From Mortierella sp. BCC40632 (taxonomy: Eukaryota; Mortierellomycota; Mortierellomycetes; Mortierellales; Mortierellaceae): a DNA stretch of 64,000 nucleotides. Both the position numbers and the translations under genes were made by a program. The DNA lies in NCBI GenBank assembly GCA_011634665.1, contig WAEK01000006.1:329001-393000 (forward strand). Reading direction: 5' to 3'. Each line of letters starts with the position of its first letter. Within the stretch, counting starts at the first letter, position 1. Of the stretch, positions 20,813 to 62,888 are shown piece by piece. The notes under the pieces were generated by a model. The model did no database searches and was not told the origin of the DNA. It saw only the letters and a program-made list of their open reading frames with translations.

Positions 20813-26936
<6,124 letters not shown>

Positions 26937-28709
26937 GGTGACGAACATAGTCCGCCCTGCGCCGTAGCCCAAATTAGATTCTTGGCCCACAGCCCGAACC
27001 AAGGACTCTCTACTCCCCTTTCTCTTGAGCAAGCATGGCGCCAGCCCACATGGCACTTCACCACTACACCACCACTCTCGTGTACGTGTCTCCTTGTACG
27101 GCGTCCATAGGACACGCGTTGTTCGAGCCAATGCGCTGCTCTACCACCGCAAAGATCCCCTCTTCAGGGCTCACTAGTGAGGTTGTTGTTGTTGTTGTTG
27201 TTGTTTTCTTGAATCGTCTTTGGGTGGGCCTCTCTTAGTGTATTCTGCGCTTCCTCTTTATTCTCTTCTTTCGAGGGACAATAGTCGGAAGGGAGATCAA
27301 CTCCAAAGCATCTCCTCTAGTCTTGGATGACCAGCATCTCCAAGATTTCCTCCTTGGATCCAGTCTTGTCTTGTGGCAAGGTAGATCAACCAAGTGGTTA
27401 TTGAATTATTAAGAAATCTCTAGGGATACAACGGCCATGTACCATATTACTCGAAGAAATGCTCGACTAGCAAAGAGTTCAGGTGTCCGTTTTGATGAGA
27501 AGCAGGAAGCTTAGCTAAGCAACACCGGAATGAATCTTGACTGACAAAAAGCTTAGAAAGTGTTTTAGGGAGGAGGAGGAGGGGGGGGGGGCAATACTGT
27601 ATAATCGTGTAGTATGGTGGAGACTGTCGACTGTAGATTCACACAATTGCCACTCCTTCTTGAAAGAGAGTGTAAAGTAGAAGTGTCTACTACTACCAAC
27701 CTTGCCGCGGATCTATTACACTCTTTTGTGCCTCCACCAAGGCCAGACACAGCAGCTCTACACCGTGGAGACATTTCAGCAAATTGATCCAAAATTGTAG
27801 GTGCTCGAAAAGATTGAATGCCATCCTGACATCTGACAATCGCTTCAACAGAGGCAGATGTGATGGAGAGCTTGGTTCTGTCGAGGGCTAGATGAGTCAA
27901 GCACCATCTCTGAGCAGAACCTTGTCGTAGCTACTATTCCAACAAAGTCAGGGGGATCACACATGGTTTCCGTAGAAAGAGCTCTTTCTCTCTTTCTCTA
28001 TCTGCCTCTCAGATCGATCTGGATACTGTGATTGCGCTGGGAATGATCCTTGGCTGGCCTGTGGTCTCAAGTCCAACACTCCCAACACAGAGCCCCTGAC
28101 AGGAGGACAAGGGAGTCGTGTTCTCCCCCATTGCTGCTCACTCGGTCCAGTCCAGTCCAGACGACGAAATAGAAAAAAAGAAAGAGAGCAGAACAGAGCG
28201 CCCCTGGTCCTCCTCCTCTTCTTCTTCTCCTCCTCAAAGTCCGAGGAGGGCTGTGCCCTGTGCTGCCGAGGCGCTCTCTCTCCTAACGCCATGTTTCTCC
28301 GCGCGCCACTTCTTTTTTCTTGGATGGTAGTGGTAGAGGTAGTAATAGTAGTAGTGTAGTGTGCACGGGACTGAGTCTACTCAATGGAGACTGGCATCAT
28401 CAGGACATGTGTGCCTGTCATTTCGCTCATTTCATTTTATTTCATTTCATCTGTCCTCTTTTTTTTTTTTTTTTTTTCTTTCTTTCTTTTTCTCTAGACC
28501 TTGAATCTGATTCCCTTTTCTCTTTCTCCTTCTCTTTCTTACCTCATTCGCTCTTTCTTGCCTCTTACGCTCCTCTCCACTCACTCTTACTCACGCTCCT
28601 CTCCACTCACTTCTCACTCATTCTCTTTTCTCTCTCTCTCACTCTCTTTCCTCACTTTTTCTACCCTTCCCCACTCTTCGCTTCCCTTTTGTATTGCTTC
28701 TTTATTGAG
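26937..28709. other. Divergent spacer ankyrin gene / hydrolase
   Basis: About 1.8 kb holds the promoters of two divergent genes. It contains (TTG)n at about 27183-27206, a G run near 27583 and pyrimidine-rich DNA from 28450 to 28700. A 111-codon minus-strand open frame (27565-27900) has no recognisable family. Confidence 0.5.
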
Positions 28710-29291
28710 ATGCCATCTGCTACCACCGATACCACCACCACCTCTGCCGCCGGTTGGTTGCCAAGTCTTCGTGCAGCTGATCCGTCTATCCTCTCGAAGA
28801 GTGCCTACCCAGAAGACTTTTATCCAGGTGGTGCCTATGCTGCACTCACCCATGGAGAGACGCATTACTTTCTTTTTGGTCCTGAGGATGGCAAAAAGGT
28901 AACAACGGCGCATTCTCTCTGTCTCTCTCTCACCCGTCATCTCACTCTTCCGAGCCTCCCTATCCTATCCTTTTTTTTTTTTTTTTCTTCTCCTCCGGGC
29001 CGATCAAAGCCGTGTCAAAGAGTGCTCAAACCCTGTTACCTAAGCTCCGTTGTGTCTCAGTCCTGGAATGACAGGATGAATTTGTGTTGTTGGACTCTTT
29101 GCATTTTTTTTTTTTTTTTTTCATTAACATACTCTTTCTCTCTCTCTTAACTCTCTTATATTTGCTAGGTGGTGCTCGTGCATGGCCTCTCCACACCAGC
29201 CTCCGTTTACAACAAGGTTGCACGCCATTTATCATCTGAGCATGGTTGTCGAGTTTTGCTCTATGGTATACTTCCGCGGTCTTTGGCTCTC

Positions 29292-29327
<36 letters not shown>

Positions 29328-29945
29328 GTGCTTGTGAATCGGTTGTTTGCTCTCTCTCACGACGTCTTTCAAGTGAACAAACCAGGCTTGGCTAAACATG
29401 TCATGATGGGGGGACTCATTTCTCTCACTTTCTCTCACCCTCTGTATCCCTAGACTTGTACTCCCGAGGTTATTCGAACAGCCCCCCAGAGAAACACGAC
29501 CAAGCGTTGTATGTGTCCCAATTGGAGGATCTGTTGAAGCACGTAGGCTGGCGCCAATGCAATGTTGTTGGACTCTCCGTGGTACGCGTCTCTGTGATTT
29601 TTTTTTTTTTTAATAGTCGAAGAAGAGAGTTGGTCGACCCTTTTTGTATTGTCGCTTTTGGCTGTGCAATGCGCAGGTCGTTTGCCCAATGATGGAGCAG
29701 TCCTGAGCCTTCCTCTCTCTCTCTCTCTCTCTGATGAAATGTGATATATGAATGACCCAAATGTGGCTAACAACTCTGCTTTGTTTGGCTGATAGGGCGG
29801 AGGCATTGTTGCCTGCTTTGCCCAGGCGAACCCAGATATCGTTCTGTCCCTGACCTTTGTTGCTCCTGCAGGACTACTGAGTGTAAGTCGACAACGTTCC
29901 TACAAGCAGTACACACACGCCCGTTCTTGCCCCAACATCCAGGAC

Positions 29946-29977
<32 letters not shown>

Positions 29978-30672
29978 AAACACATGTTGCTAAGAACCAT
30001 TGCACAAAACACACATGCCATATCATATCCTTCACACCACATCTCACACGCACGCACGAACGTACGCACGCGCCTCCTCCTCCTCCTCCTCTCTTTCACA
30101 GAGTTCCGAGATTCCGTTGGTCGGTCGAATTTTCCAGTTACCTTACAGTGTCGAGTTTTTCTCATACCAAGGATTTCGAGGTTACTTTTCACGCAAGAAT
30201 ATCGAATCCATGCGCGCAGAGTTTGCAGAGGAAGGATGTGTTCCCGAATGTATCGACCAAGCAGGTCAAATCCTTGCCTTGCAATTCCAACATCATCCAG
30301 GCTATGCTCGGGGTGTCATGTCGACTCTGAAGCACTTTCCTTTTACGGCGTTGGCACCTACTTATGGAGCTTTGCAGGACCAAGGATTTCCTGTGCAGGT
30401 TATTTGGGTAAGAAAAGTTTTTTTCCTTGGTCCAAGACCGTTTGGATTGGTTGAGTGGAAAGAGCAATTGGGCACTGATATTTTTTTTTCTTCTTCTCCT
30501 TTCTTTCTTTTTGTAGGGGACAAAGGACACGGTTGTGCCTGGAACAAGCGTGGATACGGTAGAGAGGGTACTCCCACGAATTAAAGTGACCAGGGTCGAG
30601 GGGGCGACGCATAGCATTGTGATGACCCATCCAGAGACGATTGTCCAGAGACTGGAAGGGTTTGTGGTGTAG
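28710..30672 (+). CDS. Alpha/beta hydrolase fold protein
   Basis: Six exons, 28710-28898, 29169-29265, 29454-29581, 29796-29882, 30102-30407 and 30517-30672, give 320 residues. The oxyanion HG dipeptide is at 68-69 (VVLVHGL). DLYSRGYSNSP follows. The nucleophile elbow GLSVGG places Ser137 one codon from an exon junction. Catalytic Asp273 lies in WGTKDTVVPG and His301 in EGATHSIVM. The fold fits serine hydrolases of the monoglyceride-lipase/epoxide-hydrolase superfamily. The substrate cannot be told from the sequence. No signal peptide is seen. A short (AGGAT)n repeat begins at the stop codon (30671-30694). Four introns carry poly-T tracts. Confidence 0.88.
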
Positions 30673-38216: not shown

Positions 38217-38222
38217 TTTATT
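38217..38222 (-). terminator. AATAAA polyadenylation-like signal of the Fanzor gene
   Basis: AATAAA on the minus strand about 95 nt after the Fanzor stop codon and about 110 nt before the importin start codon. Confidence 0.4.
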
Positions 38223-38316
38223 GGTTCTACTCAATTATGTATGCAAGAAAAAAAATAAAGAGTTAGGATTTGTTGTTCACGTGTTTTGCCAGACAAGCAT
38301 GAAACTGGAGGGGTTC

Positions 38317-41300
38317 TTACCATAATCCCAACTTCCGACCGGGGGCTTCAGCAGGAATCAACTTTTGATGCTGTGAGCTTGATGGATCCAATGCAGAGGA
38401 GCTGGTGTTGATAGTACGAGAGAAAGGAGGCAGCCTTTCCCGCATGTTGCTGAGGAGTTGGTGTGCACCTGCAATCGCAATCGCCACTGCCGCATGTGTG
38501 TCTCGAGGTTTGAGACAGTACCCGGACTTGAACGATATGCAGTCGACGTTGACACACTCGACTGCTCCATTGGCAGTGACAATCCTGGAACCTCGACGAT
38601 ATCGCCCTTGACGGACTGGACTAAAACAAAAGACGCATGTCTTGGACGTCCGATACTCATCCGTCATCCCAATAGTGCAGTATCGAAGGTACTGGTCTCT
38701 CATTTTGCCACCTCCCCTACGCTGATGGCCCCGTATCCTGCTACCTATCCCTGTGCCTACTTCGCCAATTAGAAGCACAGGCCGCACAGCAGGGCGATCC
38801 CTTGGACAGTCCTCCACGTGTCGAAAGCCAGAAGACGTGGGGTCGCCTGGAATGTGGTGACAATGGCACTGAGTGCACCATCCGTCCATGTTGGATACAA
38901 TTGGTAATGAAATATGGGAAGGTGCTTGCTCCGATGCTTGCTCTTGCCGCAAGGACTCGAGAGCGTGCTGTTGCACATATCGTCGCTCAGCTGCACACAG
39001 CTTCGCCCTTGTGCGGTTGGTGCGGAGCCTTTGAGTGTGGTGCATCTTGTTCAGCGAGGTCTCGAACTGTTGAAGAGTCGGACGCACACTACTGCGTGCT
39101 TTATGTGCTGTATCCATGGCACCTAAGGTTGGAGCTGCAGCAAACGAAGCTCTGAGATCTGATAACTGTACGAGTGCCTCTTGGACATTCTGGTTCTCTT
39201 CGCGTTTGAGCCTCCGTTCCCTCAGACGAGCCAGTTTTCGTGTGTGAGATACTTCGTTGACTTGGCGCGCCGTCATTTTGTGTGCTTTTTTGAGTTTCAG
39301 GCTCGCGGCATCCAGTCTGCGAGATCTTGCCATTGACTCGTCCGATTCGTTGTCGCTGGCTCCTGATCGATCGCTGTCTGAATCAACGTCGTCCATACTC
39401 TCGTTACTCGATGTCCTGTCAGAACTGCTTTCTTCCACACTACTGTGTGATTCATCTTGCTCTATCAAGTGTTGAATGAATGAAGAAAAGCATCGTTAGT
39501 CCCTCGTCTTCACTTGGTTTTACCACCAGACAGAAAACTGTATTTCGTACCTTGAGAAAGCAGCTGGAAACGGTTCGTGTGGGTCATGATCTCTCTTGGT
39601 GTGAGCGCCACTGTCTCGCTCATGGTGCGAACGCCATAATCTGTGCCACCAAAGACTATGATTTTGTCCGAGTCTTTGGATTGGTTGACAAGATCTTGGA
39701 TGTCGAGCAGTGAGGTATGATCTTCTACTCTCGGTCGGTCCCAAGTTGCCACTGTCATGCTCGGAATGGTCCCGGGCGCCCTTTGACTGCTTGGCTGTTG
39801 ACTTTGGGCAGACTGTGCTGCCTTGAGCATCTTGTTCCAGAAGAACCTGCTCTGGCGAAGCTGTCGCAGTATCTCTTCGTTTCGGAGTAGTTCTTTTCTC
39901 TCGATCCGGAGTCTTTTTCGAGCCGCCTTTAGGCTGCCATAGTCCGCGCCATTCTTGACCTGAATGCTGGTGATTGTCTGTGCCTGTTGGAGTTGGCCAA
40001 CCGACTTTCGAAGTGGCCTAACAACCTTCTCTTGTTCCTTGACCGCATCCGCCGTATCTGTCGCCTTTTTTTCCACTTGAGCCTTGGTCAAGCGAAGTTG
40101 AGAATACTCGTCTGCCCAAGAGGTACCGGACGTGTGGCGACTTTTTTCTTTTTTCCGGATATTGTAACGGCTTTCCGTAGGATGTCCAAGGCGTAAGGGG
40201 CCATTGTCAGGGTCTCCAAAAGACTGGTTGTGCCTTACGACCTTTCCAACAATGCGCACTGTGTATCGGTCAACAAAGGTCATCCTAAAAAAAATAATTA
40301 AATAGACAAATAAAAGTCAGAGTCAGAATGTTAATCAAATCTCTCAAGTAGGAGGGAGCTTTACATAAAGGGAATGTACCTGTCTGCAAACTTTAGACCA
40401 TGATCATTGCAGAACTTTTTGACTTTGGATAGGTCAAAAAATGCGCTGTAAATTGCTCTTTTGTTTGAGGGTGGCGTTGTAACTTGCGGTAATGATGTGA
40501 AAGTGTTGCCAAATGTGTCAACTGCATCAAAACAACCACGTTTGGTTGAGCAAAGGGCCTCGTACAGTGTTGTGGCACTGAGATGGAGACTTTGCAAAGC
40601 CGCTCCAGATACTTGGGGTGTTGTCTTCTGTGTGAACTGATGATATCCGGTCGCCCTTAGGACTGCATTGGCGATAACGACAATCGGAGCTCTTGTCACG
40701 ACGTGGGGTGTGTGGTTGCGATCTCCAGAACCACCTTTGTTTGGCCATCTCTTGGGCACAAATGCCCGCAAGGCATTCCCAATCGTCACGACTGCCTTGA
40801 TCTCTTCTCTGCTGAATTCTTCTCCTTTAAAAGCCGACTTTTTGACCCAGTTTTGGTTGATTTGACCATTGATGTGGTTGGACTCGAGTAGTGTTCTCAA
40901 AATCGCCTGGAGGGAACGGAGTCGCGCTCTCGAAGGTTCTTTCGCTTTGTCCGTGTCTTCAACGCTTTGGCTCTCCGAGTCCAACTCTTCATCAAGCTCT
41001 TCAAGTTCCTCGAGTGTAAAGTCAAAATCACCCACTTGTAGACCGTTGTCGCCTGAATCGCTCGTTCCTGCATTGCTTGAACTCGTTTCTTCTTCAACAT
41101 CGCCCGTGCCAGTCTCCTCCTCAGCCTCGCTTGATTCAGTTTTGTCTTCAAGCTCGTTCTGCAGTGACGATAACTGATTGATCACATAGCCAGCTCTGAC
41201 TCTGGAGTCGTTGAAACCTTGCTCCAATCCTTGCAAATGGTGCGAAAGTTCTCTACAGAGCTTCTTGACCCTTGATCTTTTCAGTGCCTTCGATGATTGG

Positions 41301-41344
41301 CCAGGATGCTGTTCATCGGAAAGCTCTGTTTTCTTGGCTGCCAT
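38317..41344 (-). CDS. Fanzor (eukaryotic TnpB-like) RNA-guided nuclease, catalytic part
   Basis: Three exons, 41344-40380, 40284-39551 and 39461-38317, join in frame (phases 2 and 1) to 947 residues. RuvC-I Asp is D537 in VFGGTDYGV, RuvC-II Glu is E800 in LLIGEVG, and RuvC-III Asp is D887 in KPRDTHAAVAIAIAG. The family-typical DEYRTSKTC lies at 834-842. Zinc ribbon cysteines are C842, C845, C869 and C874. Thus the nuclease core and ribbon look intact. His replaces the Asn common after the last Asp. Acidic, low-complexity inserts lie at about 55-140 and 570-605. The chosen start has a strong ACCATGG context, but the same frame continues upstream beyond one UGA (41375-41377), so this may be the distal part of a longer protein. 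By analogy with described Fanzors it would cut DNA using a guide RNA from its own 3' end. That is family knowledge, untested here. Confidence 0.82.
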
Positions 41345-41374
41345 GGTCCGTAGCCGTTCCTTGAATCTTTTCTC

Positions 41375-42543
41375 TCAAGCAGGAGCCAAGTGAATGCGCA
41401 GAAGAATACGCAGCAGATAATCAAGAGATTTTCTGTATATCGATCCCACCCAAAGATTGGTAACTGCTGTCGAGTACTGGCGAATGTGTGTTGTTATGGT
41501 TGACGTCAATCCTTTTGGTGAATGTGGAAACTCGGATACGTCTCGTTCGATTATTGCAGAAATTCCTGTCCACAGTGGCATTCCTCGTGCTTTTGAAGTG
41601 GAGAGATGCCTGGTGTGCAAGAACTGAATGTGGCGCTGCGATAAGATGAGGCTCAGTGCTTGGTCGAATGGACTCCTGGAGGCTTTGTCCTGGATATCCT
41701 CGATGCGCTTCTGTGCGCCCTTGTCGATGTTGTTGACTGTGATTTTTGTCTCGGTACCATCTGGGATCTCAAAGTCTTTTGGCAGGAGTTGCCTTACATC
41801 CACTTGCTCAGAATTGTTCATTCCAAGTCCTTGACCAGTTGCGACCTAAAAAATAGCGAGTTTTTTTTTTTTTTTTTTTTTTTAGACCCATTGAATCATT
41901 GATCAAAAATGCTTACAAGGTGGGTAACCATGTGAGCCAAGGTCGATAGCTCGACCTCAACATTCGTTATGTCCGTCTGTGTGTCTTCGATGAGCGCAAG
42001 GACAAGGTCAAAGTCGCACTGTCCTTCTTCGTCTTGGTTGAGATGGTCAGGGTGGATGATTTGTTTCAACGTGGCTGTACATATTCGCAAATCATCGCGC
42101 TCTTCCTCATCTTCGCTCACACCTCGATCCTCACCGTCATCATTATCATCACCGTCATCGTCGCCATCGTCTTCCGCGCGTACTTCCTTTCTACGCTTCC
42201 CTTTCTTTGTCGGGCTTTCCGCAGGTTCTTTTTCTCTCTTGGCCAGCACTTGGTTCCAGCTGGTACTGAAGTCGCTGCGAACAACGCTTTTCCATTTCTC
42301 CACGGATCCAGATGGTCCCCCGAGTTGCTTCATCATTTGTTGTCTGGCCGACCCAATGGGTGCATGCGGTAATTCTGACTTTAGGGCGAGTGGGTAGACT
42401 CCTCGTGGCAACCGCTCGGTTTCGGTAAGGCTATTCTTCAGTTTTTCTTGGCTCGACTTGATAATAGTCGTTCTTTGTTTCGGGTCCTTGTATTCTCTTT
42501 TGTTGAAGAGTGTTTTGATAGAACCTTCGATCTTCTCCTTCAT
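41375..42543 (-). CDS. Upstream coding block, in frame with the Fanzor
   Basis: Two exons, 42543-41917 and 41845-41375, encode 365 residues and end in TGA at 41375-41377. After that TGA the same frame runs ten sense codons straight into the Fanzor start at 41344. The first exon is Lys/Asp/Glu-rich with a basic KKGKRRKEVR cluster and a highly acidic Asp run. The second has helical segments (QYSTAVTNLWVGSIYRKSL and DYLLRILLRIHL) of the kind seen in Fanzor N-terminal regions. The simplest reading is that this is the Fanzor N-terminal region, cut off by a nonsense codon, giving a protein of about 1,320 residues if read through. Alternatively it is a separate small gene. The frame join is seen; the interpretation is inference. 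Confidence 0.6.
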
Positions 42544-42558
42544 GACATCCGGCTAATT

Positions 42559-42595
<37 letters not shown>

Positions 42596-42644
42596 CGATG
42601 AGTAAAAGCTGCAAAGCTGCAAAAGATCCATTGAACAGTTTAAA

Positions 42645-43478
42645 TCAAATCAGACCATCATACCATGCTTTCTTAAACGCTCTATTGGACTCGAGGACAC
42701 TCATTGCAGGCCGTTTCCTTCGAGGATTGGTGGGCTCGTCATCATCGTGCGTGCTTCGTTTTCTTGTTACCTTGGATGGTCCCACAGTCTCGGCTCTGGC
42801 CCTCTTTCTTGGGTTCTCGTCGTCACTGGTAGACCGTTCTCTTTTTTCGAGCCTGGGCTTTCCCCTTGGCTGGGCTCGAAAAACAGCGGGGTTTGTTGGT
42901 GGGATTGGAGGTGGGAGTTGGGGTGGGGGGATTGGGATGGGATCGCTCTTCGCTTGTCCAAGTACCAGCCATTGTGAAGTTTGGCGATACGAGTCCACAG
43001 AATGAAAGAATGCGACGGTACAGACCGGGCTTCTTGCCTCAAAGAAGCGAGCCTTTCGTCTGGAGGAGAAAAGATAGATGGATATATTGAGAAAACGCGA
43101 TAGCAAATGCAAAAAAAGCTCACTATGAGCATGAATTTGGAAAAACCCATTGCCACGGGTTTGAACTTTGAACCCTTCAGGACGTAGGGCTTGAGGGAGC
43201 TCCTTGTTCATTGTCGCGGCGATGAACCAGGAGTAGGAGCGGCGATCTGGGTCAAGATCGATTATCAAACCATGACTGCGGAGCACATAGAGTGCTCTGC
43301 GAGTGGTCTCGGCAAAGTTTGATGTCCTTGGGTCGCCGAACGCAGTTCGGAGACGAGTCTCATAATTGGCTGAACGACGAGTAGCTAGTCTAGACCTCGC
43401 AGCTGCAACCCATGCATCACCATCCACCTCAAAGGTCAGCCGAAGCTGACCAAAGCGAAGGTCTGTAGAATGGGGCAT
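42645..43478 (-). CDS. Unrecognised ORF upstream of the Fanzor block
   Basis: An open frame of 277 codons starts at 43478. The first 100 residues are compact and protein-like (FGQLRLTFEVDGDAWVAAAR, then an Arg-rich helix). The C-terminal third has a Pro-rich linker and several basic clusters (ENPRKRARAE, TRKRS, NPRRKRP) resembling nuclear localisation signals. I do not recognise the family. A good donor/acceptor pair (GTGAGC near 43124, CTCCTCCAG near 43060) could remove about 65 nt and shift frame, so the exact protein is uncertain. It ends at its own stop 102 bp before the next coding block in the same orientation. I could not join it to that block by a canonical intron. Confidence 0.45.
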   Translation of the reverse strand: MPHSTDLRFGQLRLTFEVDGDAWVAAARSRLATRRSANYETRLRTAFGDPRTSNFAETTRRALYVLRSHGLIIDLDPDRRSYSWFIAATMNKELPQALRPEGFKVQTRGNGFFQIHAHSELFLHLLSRFLNISIYLFSSRRKARFFEARSPVCTVAFFHSVDSYRQTSQWLVLGQAKSDPIPIPPPQLPPPIPPTNPAVFRAQPRGKPRLEKRERSTSDDENPRKRARAETVGPSKVTRKRSTHDDDEPTNPRRKRPAMSVLESNRAFKKAWYDGLI

Positions 43479-44247
43479 TTTTTCAAACTACATAGGACAA
43501 GGTGGGTAAACAAAGAAAGGAAAGTGACAAGGAGAGTGGGACAAACAGAATGAGGGCAGTGGACAAGGCGAAGACAGAGAACAACGAAGTGTGGCCAAGC
43601 TTCATAAGAGGACAGAGAGAGAGAGAGAGAGAGAGATGGAGGAGGGAGTGAGAGGGAGAGATGGAAGAGGGAGTGTGTGTGAGAGAGAAATATTTGCAGG
43701 CAAGGGCCTATTTATCTAGATTTTTTTTTTTTTTTTTTTTTTCAACATGGATCAACCTTTTCTTGCATGCAAACGTTTAAGATATGTGGTTATGTCCAAG
43801 GCTTGTCCCTTTGACAGATAAAAAAGGCAATGTGGCTATTACCGAAGGAGGAACGTGCTGTGGTCCCCAGCAAACTGATTGCGTTCGAGCCTTTCAGGAA
43901 CAAAGCGAGAGTAAACAAATAATCGAAGAGATCAAGCATTCATTTTGCACCAATTAAACTTTCAGATATGGATCTATCAAACCGACAAAGAAACTGGCAT
44001 GGACACACGGCTTCAGGACTAGTCGGGAAAGAAATGATGAAGAGGGGCTGCGCCTACACGGTTGCCGAATTTCCTGCTGCGGAAGTTGTCCACACCCACG
44101 CATCCCGAGAAAAGGAATTCTCACCTCCCCCGTAAAATTGAAAAATCACTAAAAAAGCGACCCTTTGATCGAAAAAGGAAGAGTGACCCTTCGATGAAAA
44201 GAATAAGAATGGCTACTTGAAAAAGGCGACAGGTTGAAAGGGGTTCG

Positions 44248-44467
44248 AAAGGGCTTATTTGAAGAGTCTTTGGAAAGTTGCAGGAAGTTGTGGCCCAGCT
44301 TCAGGAGTTCACGCTCCAGGAGTTGATGGGCATTGTCGATGTCTTTTGTTCTGCGTTTCACGTGGCTAGAATGCGATCCAAGGGATTGATAGGAGAAGTA
44401 GGCACATGAGGGTTTAGCTGAAGATCTCACCAGTGGTGAAAAAAAAAAAAAAAAAAAAAAAAAAAAA

Positions 44468-44508
<41 letters not shown>

Positions 44509-44527
44509 CTCTTCAAAGGGCTTATTT
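44248..44527. mobile_element. Putative small non-autonomous insertion with 13-bp target duplication
   Basis: The 13-mer AAAGGGCTTATTT occurs at 44248-44260 and again at 44515-44527. The 254 bp between them start with GAAGAGTCTTT (44261-44271) and end with its reverse complement AAAGACTCTTC (44504-44514). The interior ends in a 68-nt A-rich run (44439-44506). Direct repeats outside terminal inverted repeats look like a MITE-type insertion. The A-tail would instead fit a SINE. No coding capacity. Confidence 0.45.
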
Positions 44528-44928
44528 GATCCCATTTATGTTGTTGTGTGCAAAGCCAGCTCCGCGAAAGCGGACAGCCCAGCCCTTCGGAGATGATTGC
44601 AACAGAAAAGGCGACCAAGAAAGTGCAAGCAAGTCTGCTTTATTAAAGTATGTATTGAGGTAAGAGGTGGGCAAAGCGAGGTGGCAAAGTAAGACGGTTG
44701 CGATATATCTGACTGTGCAATCCCCTTTCCCAAAGGGCCTACCCGACTTCAGACGACAAGGATCTCCGTCCTTCACAGCAATTCCACAGGTGCATGGCTA
44801 AATTTTTTTATTTTTTGTTTGCGATAATATTTGAGTAGACCCATTGGCAGTGAGCACCATCATTTAGCATTACCGCGTATTATCCTTAATCTCGTGACCA
44901 TACATCTAAAATCGTTTAATGTTATAAT

Positions 44929-60600: not shown

Positions 60601-62888
<2,288 letters not shown>

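Follow-up and report, generated by a model that had tools for sequence, protein, structure and literature searches.

A multicopy transposable element of Mortierella sp. BCC40632 with a large gene for a putative Fanzor-lineage nuclease

The element and its interrupted gene

The stretch of DNA analysed here, referred to as the window, comprises 64,000 nucleotides (bases 329001-393000) of contig C6 in the 49.9-Mb genome of the fungus Mortierella sp. BCC40632. Its minus strand contains, at 44845-38220, a transposable element of about 6.6 kb, as evidenced by inverted ends, by 3 bp duplicated in direct orientation at its flanks, and by 58 or more other loci of the same family. The element carries a gene for a putative nuclease related to Fanzors, which form the eukaryotic branch among TnpB/Cas12 enzymes. 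Three exons of this gene, 41344-40380, 40284-39551, and 39461-38317, are joined by GT..AG introns into a frame of 947 residues, which carries GTDYG (D537), DEYRTSK at 834-840, CxxC...CxxxxC (ribbon cysteines C842, C845, C869, and C874), and RD (D887). An earlier analysis of the letters alone, hereafter the sequence-only reading, had placed these exons and residues at the same numbering and described a Fanzor locus with intact RuvC and zinc-ribbon residues, set among housekeeping genes and with no transposase recognised nearby.

The ends of the element are imperfectly inverted, with 27 of 38 bases matching; when the left 38 nucleotides were compared with both strands of the window, the best other match was the one at 38220 (27/38), and the next reached 25. 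The left terminal inverted repeat (TIR), GGGTCTACTCAAATATTATCGCAAAC..., at 44808-44842 was defined by genome-wide pattern matches and by the inverted ends of nine paralogous copies, and the right TIR with the 3′ end, at 38223-38262, by the limits of DNA homology in sister copies. The left-TIR pattern with up to three mismatches occurs 14 times in the genome, the window included, and its reversed control not at all. All nine copies read from a second family group, which has ~41% protein identity to the window type, end in the reverse complement of the left end of the window element at 44845; over 20 nucleotides, duplication included, seven of these ends have no mismatch and two have one. DNA shared with the window extends to 38216/38217 in a copy on C10 (97%) and in a fragment on C24, and only to 38333 in a copy on C8. 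The element is flanked by two copies of a 3-bp target-site duplication (TSD), AAT in the sense of the gene, at 44843-44845 and 38220-38222. Direct 3-bp repeats flank all five copies for which both ends were read; they are AAT in the window and ATT in the copies on C12 and C24 and in two on C6. A 3-bp match alone is weak, and the C6 copies, whose right flanks are common to both over more than 1 kb, are therefore non-independent; the repeats are read as duplications because they are direct, not inverted, in all five copies.

The size of the family was obtained from a protein search of the genome with the last two exons as query, in which 70 of 286 candidates were scored. It gave at least 91 matches, two of them the window itself, with a best other E-value of 1.2e-244, which is more than chance would explain, and these cluster into at least 59 loci, window included. 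Some members are rearranged. Two on C6, at about 1.12 and 1.13 Mb (L025 and L026), are elements of 1.8 kb that have lost internal sequence and retain both ends; their right flank is common over more than 1 kb, and their left flanks diverge exactly at the element end. On C10 (L020/L045) the right end of an element of the 41% group gaplessly abuts a window-type gene at one of its internal codons, where it reads MTFVDRY, and on C24 (L019/L047) such an end likewise abuts a window-type gene internally, at GMTDEYR. For C24, where the left flank is unrelated to the disrupted gene, a simple nested insertion was rejected, and no TIR occurs in the stretch examined to the left of the C10 copy. The ratio of non-synonymous to synonymous substitution rates (dN/dS) is 0.19-0.44 in the 23 pairs listed out of 36 among nine sister copies; for the last comparisons, those of the window with the C10 copy (0.07 and 0.51 for two exons) and the C8 copy (0.60 and 0.31), few changes are available. 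Such values would match the expectation for genes that were selected while active.

The gene is considerably longer than the 947-residue frame. Upstream of 41344 the same frame runs on through 41845-41378, and past an intron at 41846-41916 (GTAAGC..TTTAG), across which relatives continue, and a junction at 42664-42553, it reaches a methionine at 43478; the pieces sum to about 1,600 codons. The first open frame, of 277 codons (42648-43478), was aligned to relatives in alignments A2/A3, and the 5′ non-coding part of the element (44151-44833) is 85-92% shared, in whole or part, with other members. However, the gene in this copy is not intact. A TGA at 41377-41375 cuts the frame where homologous proteins read on, according to a by-eye comparison, and the junction, which contains a long A/T run (42553-42663) and may be a nonstandard intron or a frameshift, has no frame-keeping GT-AG intron among those tried; none of the donor and acceptor choices around 42663/42552 restored a frame. 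An intron at 43123-43060, proposed in a first splice model, was discarded because it broke the frame in a stretch that relatives code through. Because of the in-frame TGA and this junction, the window copy is most likely a pseudogene, from which probably no full-length protein is made. Among relatives in the same genome, long open frames reach 979 and 1,122 residues from stop to stop.

Nuclease motifs and the relationship to Fanzors

The exon at 39551-40284 encodes strands, a long helical hairpin, and RuvC-I with GTDYG (D537 codon, 39641-39639), the structural elements being taken from a model of the relative P0006. The last exon, 38317-39461, encodes RuvC-II, E835 (38658-38656), the zinc ribbon, and RuvC-III with RDTH (D887, 38502-38500), and closes with a stop codon at 38319-38317. 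As judged from the aligned sequences, D537 and D887 hold their places in the motifs. The third member of the triad was revised, however. The sequence-only reading had chosen E800, a column that holds glutamate in only three of 19 own-genome copies, all of the window type, and otherwise T, S, D, or A, whereas the column of E835 within DEYRTSK holds glutamate in all 19 (counted by eye, window included). In alignment A1, E835 is matched by glutamate in the eight rows with letters (four of the 12 have gaps), as it is in P0019. E800 was thus dropped as a catalytic candidate, even though its column is often acidic in other species (among ten database rows with letters, D in five, N in two, and E, S, and T in one each). 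The conserved glutamate, by its alignment, is E835, at the Fanzor site before the zinc ribbon. As fingerprints of Fanzors, a section of Yoon et al. (PMC10711439) names the DPG of RuvC-I and a glutamate that precedes the zinc ribbon by six residues, and the relevant sections of PMC10432273 and PMC11423790 give D383, E541, and D606 as the catalytic residues of SpuFz1.

The RuvC-I motif varies within the family. Among 12 own-genome copies read, seven have DYG and five DPG. For the 21 database homologues, of which P0009 has lost the motif and four fail to reach it, the 16 readable sequences divide into 14 with DYG and two with DPG. The window copy has DYG, described in a section of PMC10711439 as the TnpB-like form, in place of the DPG expected of Fanzor1, and for this reason the family is filed as a Fanzor-lineage variant, not as a canonical member. 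The histidine that follows the last aspartate by two positions, where asparagine had been expected, is indeed present, but it is hardly unusual, since all eight database rows with letters show RDxH; in the genome itself, histidine is confined to window-type copies and one copy on C1, with Asn, Ser, or Gln elsewhere. The TDG motif of the WED domain is absent from the 947-residue frame, and TFVDRY lies at what is likely the corresponding place.

Sequence profiles gave no support for a Fanzor identity. No Pfam family scored above cut-off in any of six gene pieces, and nothing in Pfam or NCBIfam did so across family members; a significant match to Fanzor/TnpB profiles, set beforehand as the test on which the assignment could fail, was not obtained. 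PF07282 matched only one of 12 members (E = 0.15), with the four ribbon cysteines nonetheless present in the window copy. When solved structures were searched by sequence, neither the window protein nor a family profile nor an N-terminal profile found a Fanzor or an ovarian tumor (OTU) protein. With one of this genome's canonical Fanzors as query, a TnpB-like PDB chain was reached at no better than E = 0.005 and a Fanzor1 chain not at all, indicating that this library is insensitive here. The 3′ ends of five of five copies fold no better than shuffled sequences, which gives no sign of a guide RNA, and Rfam and tRNA scans yielded no match.

Comparison of folds led to a different result. With a low-confidence model of a relative, the top five Foldseek matches are Fanzor1 chains, above every Cas12, with a best E-value of 1.2e-4. 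The model of the relative P0017, described below, supports a Fanzor fold more weakly. Aligned profile against profile, the family and the canonical Fanzors of the genome are co-linear, although weakly alignable. The nuclease half thus has a Fanzor fold in the relative's model, and TIRs, TSD, and repeat family indicate carriage by a eukaryotic DNA transposon. Taken together, model fold, co-linear profiles, glutamate position, and zinc ribbon support the Fanzor identity that the sequence-only reading had proposed and that sequence profiles had failed to recover.

The N-terminal half and the distribution of the family

The N-terminal region, previously described as merely acidic and of low complexity, is modelled in the relative P0017 as a structured region, tentatively an OTU-like domain followed by a helical region. 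The candidate OTU-like domain would correspond to about residues 1-173 (43478-42960) and is followed by a linker; the exon at 41917-42552 would encode the helical region together with an acidic stretch, on the basis of the alignment and the P0017 model, and the TGA-interrupted exon at 40380-41845, which includes the methionine at 41344 formerly taken as the start, a possible REC/WED part. By the same modelling, the helical region may be an enlarged REC/WED lobe. OTU or OTU-like proteases make up 10 of 36 Foldseek rows shown for the P0017 model and 13 of 50 rows shown in a second structural comparison (VIA), at model residues 24-172. These matches speak against a private family fold unrelated to OTU, to which we would nevertheless give close to an even chance. 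A conserved cysteine was not found, no column having cysteine in three or more of eight rows, and a single histidine column is occupied in seven of eight.

Homologue searches returned 13, 2, and 10 proteins, corresponding to 21 different ones, two of which came from a profile search with A1. Nineteen carry an organism name, and those named are annotated as hypothetical proteins. The five genera looked up belong to Mortierellomycota, and Mortierella, Actinomortierella, and Entomortierella were assigned by name. Longer relatives have database models of 1,275-1,823 residues as annotated. Residues 15-54 of P0009 resemble part of a DDE_3 transposase domain before the giant Fanzor (E = 9.4e-6, below cut-off). 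The C-terminal 250 residues of P0019, without a tool match, follow the giant Fanzor and presumably resemble the N-terminus of a fungal Crypton/tyrosine recombinase; a fusion of gene models is possible for this stretch. Among open-licence papers, none was found that joins Fanzor with Mortierella, TnpB with Mucoromycota, or Fanzor with ovarian tumor.

The genome also contains 48 PF07282 matches, 42 of them over cut-off, and all lie 2 kb or more from the 59 loci. Beside one of these canonical matches (L008, C5:2061543), however, at a distance of no more than 0.2 kb, sits a giant-family relic that is additional to the 59 loci. Four canonical Fanzors, when spliced, have 522-561 residues, an ordinary Fanzor1 size. 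RuvC-I reads DLG, not DPG, in all five canonical-size loci read (L001 and L004-L007). Elsewhere in the window, positions 24001-30000 show a strongly strand-biased composition (GC skew +0.31 then -0.18; AT skew +0.29 then -0.33), and the open frame at 61679-62521 includes a long run of IYIYIY, which corresponds to a (TA)n-like repeat.

Interpretation and comparison with known systems

The locus is quite probably a decayed, non-autonomous transposon in which the sole gene recognised codes for a giant protein of the Fanzor/TnpB lineage. The protein would comprise, in order, a possible OTU-like domain, a large helical region that probably acts as a REC/WED lobe of increased size, a helical hairpin, and a RuvC nuclease that bears both the alternative glutamate and a zinc ribbon. 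No DDE transposase was recognised by Pfam in the element among the pieces and open reading frames (ORFs) searched, and the smallest distance between any of the 38 DDE_Tnp_4 matches in the genome and any of the 59 loci is 9.9 kb. A TSD of 3 bp is typical of the PIF/Harbinger superfamily. A DDE transposase acting in trans may have moved the element, and its Harbinger type is a guess from the TSD length. TnpB has been proposed to cut DNA in such a way that repair restores the copy. By analogy with Fanzors, an intact nuclease of this family might be directed by an element-encoded guide RNA to cut a vacated or matching site, and repair after the cut would restore an element copy. The N-terminal domain would serve as a binding module, not as a protease.

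Other readings of the locus can be weighed against the same data. That a Fanzor-derived gene has been domesticated as a single-copy host gene, fixed among housekeeping genes, is in keeping with the surroundings: several neighbours are ordinary genes, seven of nine neighbouring ORFs having Pfam matches (gamma-tubulin complex, poly(A) polymerase-like, Cse1/importin-like, GYF, and PH among them). In this respect the sequence-only reading was right about the neighbourhood. The right end of the element lies ~100 bp upstream of the start of the putative Cse1/importin-like gene. The picture of a stand-alone gene does not agree with the bounding TIRs, the 3-bp TSD, the 59 loci, and the in-frame stop, and domestication is therefore considered highly improbable. 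Two genes might instead be present, an upstream one ending at the TGA at 41375 and a Fanzor of 947 residues starting at the methionine at 41344. The two codons are ~30 nucleotides apart, and database model P0006 starts near that methionine and P0003 somewhat after it; both parts, however, share one frame, and P0002 (1,467 residues), P0007 (1,345), and P0019 (1,823, partial) hold both halves contiguously in single proteins, which makes this division unlikely.

The nuclease could also be nearer to Cas12 or to other TnpB branches than to Fanzors, or be convergent. Its DYG agrees with a TnpB-like RuvC-I, and in a VIA comparison made for the nuclease Cas12j rows score 13.5 against 13.3 for SpuFz, which amounts to a tie. 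In that comparison, on the other hand, SpuFz rows have 18-20% identity and Cas12j rows 11-13%, and together with the rank of the five Fanzor1 chains in Foldseek, the invariant pre-ribbon glutamate, and the DPG of five of 12 own-genome copies, this leaves such an origin with little probability. A broader proposal is that Mortierellomycete fungi hold a large undescribed clade of giant Fanzors, in single-gene TIR transposons encoding proteins of ~1,500 residues in which an inactivated OTU-type domain, which could perhaps bind ubiquitin or a host repair factor, is joined to an expanded RNA-guided RuvC nuclease, the clade being missed by profile-based surveys; we would place this somewhat below an even chance. 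The family is about twice the usual Fanzor size, has dozens of copies in the genome, and scores below the domain model that, according to a section of PMC10711439, served as the entrance of a published survey. The same section adds that models were then iterated and BLASTp matches included, so that some members may have been met. Because a large family scores below this entrance model, the range of sizes and of active-site variants known for Fanzors may be too narrow. Intact sisters would allow direct tests of the DYG/DPG switch within one family and of the possible OTU-type module.

Among known systems, PIF/Harbinger elements share the 3-bp TSD of all five copies, but carry a DDE transposase within the element, which was not recognised here among the pieces and ORFs searched. 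Mucor MCi-5 and MCi-2 (PMC3627910) are likewise fungal Fanzor transposons of uncertain superfamily, and three MCi-5 copies encode a Harbinger transposase; they have putative TSDs of 6 bp or 11-12 bp and no clear TIRs, in contrast to the 3 bp and TIRs found here. An OTU-type domain in a transposon protein is known from Ginger1 and some Helitron transposons (PMC2836005), where it lies at the C-terminus of the Ginger1 transposase or in the Helitron protein, whereas the candidate here is at a Fanzor N-terminus and lacks a conserved cysteine. The canonical Fanzor1 family of the same genome resembles the giant one in glutamate position, ribbon, RD motif, and weakly alignable profile, and differs in its 522-561 residues, its DLG in RuvC-I (5/5), TDG in four of five read and TNG in the fifth, and endings such as HRDVMAGHNI. 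Fanzor1 in general (SpuFz1, PpFz1; Bao & Jurka 2013, Saito et al. 2023) mostly has 600-700 residues according to a section of PMC11423790, and up to ~800 in one of PMC10711439, against 1,275-1,823 for the giant-family models. The giant family differs further in the DYG of most members, the RDxH of other species, a possible OTU-like N-terminus, and its escape from PF07282. The two nevertheless have in common the RuvC motifs, the alternative glutamate before a putative C4 ribbon, a Fanzor-like fold of the modelled nuclease half, and residence in eukaryotic DNA transposons with TIRs.
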